DNA from: Planctomicrobium piriforme
Lineage (GTDB): Bacteria; Planctomycetota; Planctomycetia; Planctomycetales; Planctomycetaceae
Length of the DNA stretch: 38,487 bases
Direction: 5' to 3'
Assembly: GCA_945860955.1 (NCBI GenBank)
Contig: CAMATH010000079.1
Coordinates: forward strand, 1 to 38,487
Each line of letters starts with the position of its first letter. The stretch's first letter is position 1. Below are positions 36,479-38,487 of this stretch, piece after piece. Both the position numbers and the translations under genes were made by a program. The notes under the pieces were generated by a model that was given only the letters and a program-made list of their open reading frames with translations, was not told the origin of the DNA and ran no database searches.

Positions 36479-37738
36479 ATGAACGCTCCCCATCCTCCGC
36501 GCCGTCGTCTTTGGCTCACCCTGGGTCTGCTTGGACTCGCCGCGATCGCAGTACTATTCGCCTGGCCACGGATTCAACTGTGGCTGACACTGTCGGCGGC
36601 GAGAACCGCGATCGCCGAACGAGACTATGACACCGCCCTGGTTCATCTGGAGCGTGCGCGTGACCAATCTCCCAATGAAGCCGAACCGTATTTCCTGCTG
36701 GCCCGCGTCTACCGCCATCAGGGAAAACCGGACCCGCTGCGTAAATCGCTCGAGCGAGCTCGCGATCTGGGATTCTCCAACCGTCGGATTCGCCTGGAAG
36801 AGTACCTGGCCCTGGCACAAAACGGCCAAATGACAGAGGCTCTCCCTCAACTCGCACCGCTCCTGATCGAATCGTCGGCAGACGAAGGCCAGGAAATCTG
36901 CGAGGCGTACGTCAGTGGTTTTTTCGCGACGTACAAATTCGCTGAGGCGTTTGACTTGATGGAAGTCTGGCAGAAGGACTATCCCAAAGACCCTCAGCCG
37001 TATTTCAGTCGCGGTCTGTACGAAGCCCACGCCGGCAATCATCAAAAGGCAATTGCCGAACTGAGCAAAGGGGTGGAGTTGGCACCGCGGCGCGACGACA
37101 TTCGGCGGACCCTGGCGAAATCGCTGCTCGCAACCCAGCAGTTTGACGAGGCTGAAACCCGGCTTCGTGACCTCCTCCGGCGGCAACCCCGGCACGTGGA
37201 ATCTCTGACCCTGTTGGGAAGCTGTCTCCTGGAGCAGGGTCAGCTCGACGAGGCCCGGACCACGCTGGCGAAGGCGCTGGAAATCGATTCCACCGACCGC
37301 CAGGCGCGGCTCCTGACCGGTCGCGTCGAATTGAAAGCGGGCCATCCCGAGCGGGCCATCGAATGGCTGGAACCAGTTGTCAAAGAACTTCCCTACGAGT
37401 TCGATGCCCGGTTTCAATTCGGGACCGCGCTCCAGCAGGCGGGGCGGGGAGACGAGGCTGTGGAGCATCTGCAATTCGTCGCTGCGGCTCAAACGGCACT
37501 CGCCCGGGTCCGCAACCTGATGATCGACGCCCGGAATGATCCCGACAACGCGGCCGCCCGATTGGAGATCGGCTTAACCCTCCTCAAATACGAATCACCC
37601 GAAGCGGGCGCGAACTGGTTAAGGAATGTGCTGGAACTCGACCCCGACAACGCCAAGGCCCACGCGGGACTGGCGGAGTACTACGACCAGCGCGGTGACC
37701 ACGACCGGGCGGCACTTCATCGGGAAAAGGCGGAGTAG
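36479..37738 (+). CDS. Membrane-anchored TPR protein
   Basis: A 419-residue protein with a basic N terminus (PHPPRRR), one transmembrane helix at about 10-28 (LWLTLGLLGLAAIAVLFAWP) and about nine tetratricopeptide repeats in the remainder (DYDTALVHLERARDQSPNEA, FDEAETRLRDLLRRQPRHVE, QLDEARTTLAKALEIDSTD). The frame is open 149 codons upstream, crossing the other TPR gene, but the ATG at 36479 begins the basic/hydrophobic anchor and is the only sensible start. It mirrors the divergent TPR gene at 35086-36303 and may be its paralogue or heterotypic partner. A candidate small-RNA promoter begins 10 bases after its stop. Confidence 0.87.
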   Translation: MNAPHPPRRRLWLTLGLLGLAAIAVLFAWPRIQLWLTLSAARTAIAERDYDTALVHLERARDQSPNEAEPYFLLARVYRHQGKPDPLRKSLERARDLGFSNRRIRLEEYLALAQNGQMTEALPQLAPLLIESSADEGQEICEAYVSGFFATYKFAEAFDLMEVWQKDYPKDPQPYFSRGLYEAHAGNHQKAIAELSKGVELAPRRDDIRRTLAKSLLATQQFDEAETRLRDLLRRQPRHVESLTLLGSCLLEQGQLDEARTTLAKALEIDSTDRQARLLTGRVELKAGHPERAIEWLEPVVKELPYEFDARFQFGTALQQAGRGDEAVEHLQFVAAAQTALARVRNLMIDARNDPDNAAARLEIGLTLLKYESPEAGANWLRNVLELDPDNAKAHAGLAEYYDQRGDHDRAALHREKAE

Positions 37739-37748
37739 TTCGAGGATC

Positions 37749-37777
37749 TTGTCTTTTTCAATTGCACTTGTTACAAT
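37749..37777 (+). promoter_or_regulatory. Strong sigma-70-type promoter
   Basis: -35 TTGTCT (37749-37754) and -10 TACAAT (37772-37777) separated by exactly 17 bases: 4/6 and 5/6 matches to consensus. Predicted start near 37783. It is the best promoter in the window and does not directly precede any protein start. Confidence 0.65.
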
Positions 37778-37782
37778 GACAG

Positions 37783-37962
37783 ACGTTGAGTTGAGATTTG
37801 AACGTCTGCCTCCTCAACGTGTGTGTTAAGGAATTGATTGTCGGATGACTCACTAGAGAGCAACCTTAACGGCCTAATGTAGGTCGGTGAGGTGGCTCAA
37901 TAAGAAGTAAGCCGGCGTGCGGGAGATCCCATTGAGGGATTTCTCGCATGCCGGCTTTTTTT
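37783..37962 (+). ncRNA. Candidate small RNA or structured 5' leader, about 180 nt
   Basis: A non-coding transcript bounded by the promoter at 37749-37777 and the terminator at 37909-37962. Near its 5' end two helices compete for the same bases: CAGACGTT (37780-37787) with AACGTCTG (37801-37808), or ACGTTGAG (37783-37790) with CTCAACGT (37813-37820). A second stem is GTTAAGG (37825-37831) with CCTTAAC (37864-37870). The segment CCTCCT (37809-37814) is complementary to a Shine-Dalgarno sequence and is single-stranded in the first fold but partly paired in the second. It resembles none of the common RNAs I checked by eye (6S, SRP, tmRNA, RNase P, common riboswitches). It could be a trans-acting RNA or an attenuating leader for the small gene at 38084. 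Confidence 0.5.
37909..37962 (+). terminator. Intrinsic terminator
   Basis: A 22-base left arm (37909-37930, starting AAGCCGGC and ending AGATCCC) pairs with 37936-37957 (GGGATTTC...GCCGGCTT) through a 5-base loop, with a few mismatches or wobbles, and is followed by a T-rich run (TTTTTTTG then TTTTTG). This is the strongest Rho-independent terminator in the window. Confidence 0.9.
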
Positions 37963-38083
37963 GTTTTTGTCGATACCGGTCATTCCGAAATCTGACCGAA
38001 AACCGGTGTCAACGGGATGGAGTTGGAGGCGTGTCGCCTCCGATAGTTGATCCGCGTACCTCGTTTTCTGAAAGTCACTTCTG

Positions 38084-38342
38084 ATGTGGAATCGCACGCT
38101 TTCTCTCGCCCTGTTGTCGTTGGTGATGCTGGCGGGTGGCCCCGCCTTCGCGGCCAAGGAGGCCAAGGAGTCTGACGAACCGATGCACGACGGCAAGGTC
38201 GTCAGTGTGTCGGGACACGATCTCGTCATGACCAACAAAGATGGAAAGGAACACACGCACACGCTGACAAAGGACGCCAAAGTCACGTGTGACGCCAAGG
38301 CCTGCAAGCTCAGCGATCTGAAAGAAGGCCTGAAGATCCGAG
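38084..38342 (+). pseudogene. Small secreted protein, interrupted near the C terminus by an insertion element
   Basis: An 86-codon intact stretch. Residues 1-23 are a signal peptide (LSLALLSLVMLAGGPAFA), followed by AKEAKESDEPMHDGKVVSVS and a beta-rich part (GHDLVMTNKDGKEHTHTLTK, then DAKVTCDAKACKLSDLKEGL). Small planctomycete secreted proteins with this pattern (DGKVV..., HTHTL, CDGKACKLEDLK) normally continue with a few more strand residues after LKIR. Here the frame runs from codon 87 into Arg/Pro-rich sequence with no stop before the window edge, and the DNA switches to what looks like a mobile-element end (GTAACTGCTCAATAACCC at 38343). I read this as a gene broken by insertion, losing the last part of the protein. 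Function unknown; it lies downstream of the structured RNA. Confidence 0.55.
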
Positions 38343-38487
38343 GTAACTGCTCAATAACCCCTCGGAAACTGGTATTTACTCAAAGTCGGTTTTTCGGGGA
38401 ATGTATGGCGCATGAGCCAGTCAGACCCCCAGCCAATCCAACCGATCGTCATCGCGGGAATCGAGATCCCGGCGGCGGAGCAGACGC
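38343..38487 (+). mobile_element. Probable left end of an insertion sequence (IS66-like?), runs off right edge
   Basis: From GTAACTGCTC (38343) the sequence no longer fits the interrupted secreted-protein gene. After about 70 non-coding bases a new frame opens at ATG 38412 (MSQSDPQPIQPIVIAGIEIP) and runs to the edge. A GTAA end and a transposase-type N terminus fit IS66-family elements, which are common in planctomycetes, but only 25 codons are visible, so the family is a guess. The right end and target duplication lie outside the window. Confidence 0.4.
38412..38487 (+). CDS. N-terminal piece of a putative transposase (partial)
   Basis: Twenty-five codons from ATG 38412 to the window end, beginning MSQSDPQPIQPIVIAGIEIP. 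The start lies about 70 bases inside the putative element end, the usual spacing for a transposase gene. It overlaps, in another frame, the run-on reading frame of the interrupted gene. Too short for firm assignment. Confidence 0.35.
   Translation, partial: MSQSDPQPIQPIVIAGIEIPAAEQT

Follow-up and report, generated by a model that had tools for sequence, protein, structure and literature searches.

Is the short structured transcript near the end of this planctomycete contig an RNA that acts on its own, or the leader of the gene that follows it? An earlier note on the window (the whole stretch of DNA that was analysed, 38,487 nt) had proposed a free-standing small RNA, perhaps a switch worked by two competing helices. 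We consider it likely, with a probability of about 0.8, that the stretch is one copy of a repeated cis-acting transcription attenuator lying before stress-type genes in many planctomycetes, a reading drawn from sequence comparison. To our knowledge, how planctomycetes coordinate their stress responses is largely open. The features of the locus are collected in Table 1.

Table 1. Features of the window discussed in the text (positions are those of the window).
Feature	Position	Strand	Basis or details
Promoter-like site	37749..37777	+	-35 TTGTCT, 17-nt spacer, -10 TACAAT; 9/12 consensus matches
Copy-specific 5' hairpin region with two alternative 8-bp helices	37780..37820	+	Inverted repeats
Conserved element (antiterminator plus terminator), 125 nt	37839..37963	+	Covariance-model hits; 97-copy alignment A7
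Antiterminator hairpin	37842..37914	+	CGG/CCG 37842-37844 with 37912-37914; ACU/AGU 37848-37850 with 37906-37908; family middle pairs 37854-37856 with 37900-37902; GAGC/GCUC 37858-37861 with 37895-37898
Intrinsic terminator	37909..37962	+	22-nt arms 37909-37930 / 37936-37957, then T7 (U tract); 5' strand begins AAGCCG, common to antiterminator
Presumed target gene, start of small secreted-type protein	38084..38343	+	Interrupted at ~38343 by repeated mobile element; no Pfam family

The promoter with 17-base spacing that the earlier note described is present. By itself it is non-significant, one TTGTCT-17-TACAAT site being found against 0.4 ± 0.7 expected. Upstream of 96 copies of the conserved element, a -35-like CCTTGCYTT and a -10-like TAnaAT occur, in 82 of the 96 at two neighbouring spacings. 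A similar pattern is thus seen upstream of the other copies. Over the 96 copies this motif scores 9.5, against 6.5 in shuffled leaders treated alike, in a search seeded with a CTTGC / TANAAT guess and with shuffles that preserve single-base composition only.

Two perfect 8-bp pairings follow the promoter, as had been claimed. The first joins CAGACGTT (37780-37787) to AACGTCTG (37801-37808) and the second ACGTTGAG (37783-37790) to CTCAACGT (37813-37820), so that bases 37783-37787 are common to both. Since the first helix begins two bases past the end of the -10 box, part of it may fall upstream of the transcription start. Among 1000 dinucleotide shuffles of 37778-37905, 7 contain at least two 8-bp inverted repeats, as do 19 of 600 real 128-base tiles from the window, which makes the pair of helices uncommon, yet not extreme. 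Overlapping alternative 8-bp helices occur together in a single one of 97 copies, that of the window, if two further copies are excluded in which the overlapping repeats are single long hairpins read in several registers. The region 37783-37962 folds with z = -7.3 (0 of 200 shuffles as good), and by inspection much of this energy belongs to the terminator stem. In the 52 nt before the core, 94 leaders have a mean folding z of -1.19 compared with -0.04 in control stretches, and 41% of leaders fall below -1.5 compared with 10% of control stretches (Mann-Whitney p 1.2e-7). This shift suggests that a 5' hairpin is a common habit of the copies, without conserved sequence. The CCTCCT of the earlier note is likewise found in the window's leader; CCTCC occurs in 5 of 97 leaders and is not conserved.

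The conserved part of the stretch sits just 3' of the two 8-bp helices. When 37749-37970 was compared with 99 genomes, 11 matches were obtained in five genomes, the window included, with four in its own genome; the other ten all start at query base 85 (37833) or beyond, 3' of those helices. On the correct strand, all 11 share a common core, in which CGGA[T/A]GACT is followed by a GCAACC-type strand, a hairpin, a GGNGGC-type strand, GTA[A/G]GCCG, the terminator and a T run. Genome searches were made with a covariance model, R1, and then with its successor, R2. The window's own genome holds 12 copies of the element. Of the 21 model matches in that genome, nine are weak hits (27-41 bits) that read the same palindromic terminators on the opposite strand, and because of such echoes totals are stated per genome and not per copy. 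With at most 24 or 13 candidates scored per genome, and counting the window's genome each time, the element is present in 46 of 150 genomes of the window's family, in 72 of 297 genomes of its class, across 12 families (some of the 72 depend on weak matches, and four have a best E above 1e-5), and in 10 of 294 genomes of its phylum (three of them weak, under 30 bits). Among its carriers are the culturable Bythopirellula polymerisocia Pla144, which has two copies in L050, and several MAGs, labelled Pirellulales, Planctomycetaceae and Phycisphaerales. One genome (G182) has 51 raw matches, opposite-strand echoes included, and at least 26 at 60 bits or more among the matches listed. With 150 candidates scored in each, no element was found in two genomes of the window's own genus (G001 and G003) or in the eight genomes chosen as negatives.

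The alignment used below, A7, holds 97 copies. The model searches gave 113 rows, of which 101 were distinct, and two opposite-strand copies and one partial copy were then removed; A7 is without the repeated loci L003, L014, L015, L016, L019 and L064 and the non-repeated loci L041 and L043. Among 18 pattern hits, one (L044) has a 24-bit model hit only and one (L054) has no model hit. In one genus (g35; L062, L063 and L070), several elements cluster within 15-20 kb, with divergent pairs about 200-400 nt apart.

Pairing and computed energies support two mutually exclusive folds in this element, an antiterminator and a terminator. The near-invariant strands CGGANGACU and AGUAAGCCG, with the conserved pattern CGGA-GACU opposite AGUAAGCCG, can pair and close a long irregular hairpin. 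Read inwards along A7, this antiterminator consists of CGG/CCG, a 3x3 loop, ACU/AGU, a second 3x3 loop, a 3-bp middle helix, A.G, GAGC/GCUC, an A-A/N-G loop, CCC/GGG and a variable end loop. The columns of the middle helix (17-88, 20-87 and 21-86) are paired in 84, 85 and 67 of 96 copies, the helix having been picked post hoc from the data, with one of its three pairs non-standard in the window. The 3' strand of the antiterminator, AAGCCG (37909-37914), doubles as the 5' strand of the 22-bp intrinsic terminator, which a scan of 36500-38487 confirmed where the earlier note had placed it.

Across the 97 copies, antiterminator pairs are formed in 94.2% of cells, compared with 86.0% in shuffles, and two-sided changes occur in 9 of 13 pairs (0 of 500 shuffles as high). 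Terminator pairs are formed in 94.7%, with two-sided changes in 17 of 22 pairs; 3 of 500 shuffles were as high on this last measure and 0 of 500 on the others. The outer CGG/CCG is nearly invariant and is also needed by the terminator, and consequently gains no independent support from covariation. Among the inner P1 pairs, one is invariant and two have two-sided changes in 2 and 3 of the 96 rows; the last pair is disrupted in 11. When the RNA is cut ahead of the 3' arm of the terminator, the mean pairing probability of the closing helix has a median of 0.95 and exceeds 0.5 in 93 of 97 copies. For the full core, all 97 copies are more stable in the terminator form, by 4.9-16.6 kcal/mol. The antiterminator is therefore favoured while only the 5' part exists and the terminator once the RNA is complete, which we read as an ON switch that would need a stabilising factor. 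The idea of a switch by competing helices thus stands as to a structured RNA with a promoter, a terminator and mutually exclusive helices, and fails as to the helices chosen. The leader sequence is not conserved, and the conserved competitors are the antiterminator (37842-37914) and the terminator (37909-37957). A start-stop peptide within the core (AUG-ACU-NNN-UAR) was considered and rejected, column 8 being T in 45 of 100 rows, A in 35 and C in 18.

Gene order speaks to whether the element acts in cis. With one rule for both strands (ORFs of at least 90 aa), 75 of 92 copies are followed by a same-strand ORF and 17 by one on the opposite strand, which indicates a 5' leader and not the free-standing RNA that had been suggested. 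The median distance to the downstream ORF is 53 nt, and 57 of the 75 same-strand ORFs lie within 150 nt; upstream, the nearest ORF shares the strand of the element in 50 copies and lies opposite in 42. Other length cuts gave 74, 73 and 66 same-strand downstream ORFs. A rule that trimmed same-strand ORFs overlapping the core and dropped opposite-strand ones gave 81 versus 11 of 92 and is biased to the same strand. ORFs were taken by a longest-ORF rule, by which some picks are surely wrong, and five of the 97 copies of A7 were left out (four with a short flank, one duplicate). The 17 opposite-strand cases count against an attenuator, as does the interruption of the target gene in the window itself.

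Could these copies instead be a family of trans-acting small RNAs that merely happen to precede genes? A promoter-like site in most copies and a strong terminator would suit such RNAs, but we regard them as improbable, given the orientation of the downstream ORFs (from orientation alone) and the use of one conserved strand by two alternative helices. Further, elements can stand in tandem before one gene, 15-17 nt apart (L064 4329-4435 and 4453-4560; L069 9195-9304 and 9320-9427), leaving no space for a second promoter. A mobile or duplicated promoter-terminator cassette, spreading as an unregulated passive repeat, would produce many similar copies, clusters and a patchy distribution such as the absence from the eight chosen negatives. 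Compensatory changes in both antiterminator and terminator pairs, together with the biased orientation and the short distance to genes, make this very improbable.

We therefore return to the attenuator, in which RNA polymerase would start about 7 nt past the -10 box and make the short 5' leader first. Judged from the order of transcription, the antiterminator hairpin could then form ahead of the terminator. If nothing stabilised it, the stronger 22-bp terminator would take over the shared AAGCCG strand and transcription would end before the gene. Binding of a factor would hold the antiterminator, the terminator would lose its base and the downstream gene would be read. The many copies would place stress-, dormancy- and envelope-type genes under one signal.

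RAT antiterminators are shorter than 73 nt. The element hairpin, at 73 nt, is thus longer, and it precedes stress-type genes, whereas RATs serve sugar-use genes. Like the RAT of BglG/LicT, the antiterminator of the element shares a strand with its terminator, a likeness in pairing and energies only; the RAT of BglG, SacY and LicT is a hairpin with internal loops, exclusive with a terminator and held by a protein, as described in PMC3369936. As a partner of the element, the RAT-type domain CAT_RBD (PF03123) was rejected, since none of the 20 genomes tested, 12 of which carry the element, contains it; among 14 control genomes it was found in 4. Leaders read by ANTAR-domain proteins such as AmiR and NasR, according to PMC3369936, also work by antitermination, with a hairpin that excludes the terminator, as in the element, and with loops P1 and P2. 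Apparently in contrast to this P1 and P2 arrangement, the element conserves a single long hairpin whose end loop varies in length; its leaders, for their part, often carry a 5' hairpin. ANTAR (PF03861) was rejected as a partner too, since it occurs in 5 of the 12 element-positive genomes and in 3 of the 8 negative ones.

Transcriptional ON riboswitches usually share a P1-type helix with the terminator and occur in many copies per genome. The element resembles them in both its shared closing helix and its copy number, and differs in belonging to no Rfam class. Within the attenuator reading it is possible, though we hold it tentatively, that the irregular hairpin is the aptamer of a metabolite or second-messenger riboswitch for an alarmone-like ligand. 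The usual riboswitch layout, the conserved purine-rich internal loops (A7, G9, A22.G85 and A27.G79) and the strong copies ahead of unrelated genes in G182 argue for this, while a single long hairpin with no conserved branched junction or terminal loop argues against it. Rfam gave 0 matches above the gathering cut-off across the whole window, which agrees with the earlier impression of an RNA outside the common classes and also counts against a riboswitch. At permissive thresholds (37700-38090, and L050 1860-2080), hits lie far below the family cut-offs, mostly on the long terminator stem, and none is a riboswitch.

The orphan Rhodopirellula-1 motif could be an earlier sighting of the same RNA; in Table 1 of a 2010 survey (PMC2864571), it is listed as ambiguous as an RNA, probably cis-regulatory, present in Proteobacteria and Planctomycetes, and without an Rfam number. 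By that table entry the two agree in being probably cis-regulatory and in occurring in Planctomycetes, and differ in that Rhodopirellula-1 is also in Proteobacteria. That motif aside, no such leader was described among the matches listed by a literature search.

If the switch is right, its factor may be a small ligand or, with equal probability, another protein or a physical signal; after these two broad classes comes MpsC-a (DUF2294, about 125 aa), the best single candidate and a candidate RNA binder. It is possible, again tentatively, that MpsC-a is an RNA-binding antitermination regulator of the whole regulon, encoded divergently from its own target. MpsC-a proteins form a distinct group within PF10057, found divergent beside an element, and are 52-94% identical to the L052 protein. 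When loci were fetched by the protein alone (30 loci, the best one from each of 30 genomes, out of 49 with a match among the 150 family genomes searched), 24 carried a strong element, all 24 divergent and about 120-450 nt off, one being cut by a contig end. The six without one are L146, L149, L158, L171, L173 and L174; in two of them, L158 and L173, the contig ends within 30 nt. Across the 150 family genomes, at a cut of 1e-33, 31 have both element and MpsC-a, 15 the element alone, four MpsC-a alone and 100 neither (Fisher 1.3e-16); one of the four, G122, does carry the element. MpsC-a is in 23 of 25 genomes with at least five raw element matches. In a chosen set of 20 genomes, 12 element-positive and 8 negative, MpsC proteins were found in 11 of the former and one of the latter. 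In a genome of another family (G440), a weak element of 29.8 bits is also divergent to MpsC-a (L087:1501-1605 and 1789-2154, 184 nt apart), and the family is therefore probably more widespread than the model indicates.

Several results weigh on the other side. Fifteen element-positive genomes are without MpsC-a at the 1e-33 cut, the table changes to 34/12/15/89 at 1e-20 and 27/19/1/103 at 1e-43, and G180, with 16 element matches and no MpsC at all (89% complete), counts against MpsC-a being required. Joint inheritance in one island could account for the association, and MpsC proteins are often targets themselves. The predicted structure of MpsC-a (pLDDT 87.5) has no clear match to any solved structure, with no Foldseek relative at E <= 0.001 and a best VIA-align Z of 7.2, to FtsK, in the range that the VIA-align note calls common. 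A literature match for the name DUF2294 was a fungal secretome study.

Judged from family names, many of the genes behind the element appear to be of stress or dormancy type, and stress, redox, envelope and regulatory families are all represented. The scan covered 78 of the 79 distinct downstream proteins, one paralogue being omitted, and 25 of the 78 have no family at E <= 0.001. The most frequent families are MpsC (9), Ice_binding (4), sigma-70 (2), YflT (2) and cation ATPase (2), and singletons include Usp, phosphoketolase, acetate kinase, CsrA, KaiC, DUF4142, ferritin, PRC and ArsD. The nine MpsC genes are a lower bound because those of L042 and L045 follow an element where the ORF rule took another frame or gene. 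CsrA stands behind an element in L064 and L030, and sigma-70 in L049 and L051; with such global regulators behind it, the regulon may extend into control by CsrA and sigma factors. At L043, DnaK-like and slipin-like proteins were recognised by eye downstream. One protein downstream of an element (L037:523-1455) combines MpsC (DUF2294) with a ferritin-like domain, and other MpsC frames of about 300 aa are present in several element-bearing genomes.

We speculate, as a broader claim that is more doubtful still, that the general-stress regulon of planctomycetes is run at transcription termination and not at initiation, by one leader RNA family that reaches two dozen copies or more in certain genomes and is switched by DUF2294/MpsC as a new kind of RNA-binding antiterminator. 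If this were true, the present annotation of DUF2294/MpsC (sodium translocation) would be misleading. One leader RNA before phosphoketolase, acetate kinase, universal stress, sigma factor, CsrA, KaiC and DUF2294 genes makes stress coordination directly testable, and the covariance model provides a tool to find the regulon and points to a possible function for DUF2294.

The presumed target protein in the window gave no family in a Pfam search. It appeared by eye to resemble an L070 protein, a likeness that was rejected when BLASTP returned no match (best E 0.049). The last bases of the window, 38343-38487, are a repeated mobile-element end that breaks the gene starting at 38084. Counting the window, and with 40 of 147 candidates scored, this end has at least 40 matches at 97-100% identity in the window's own genome, and 18 of the 40 lie within 6 bases of a contig start.
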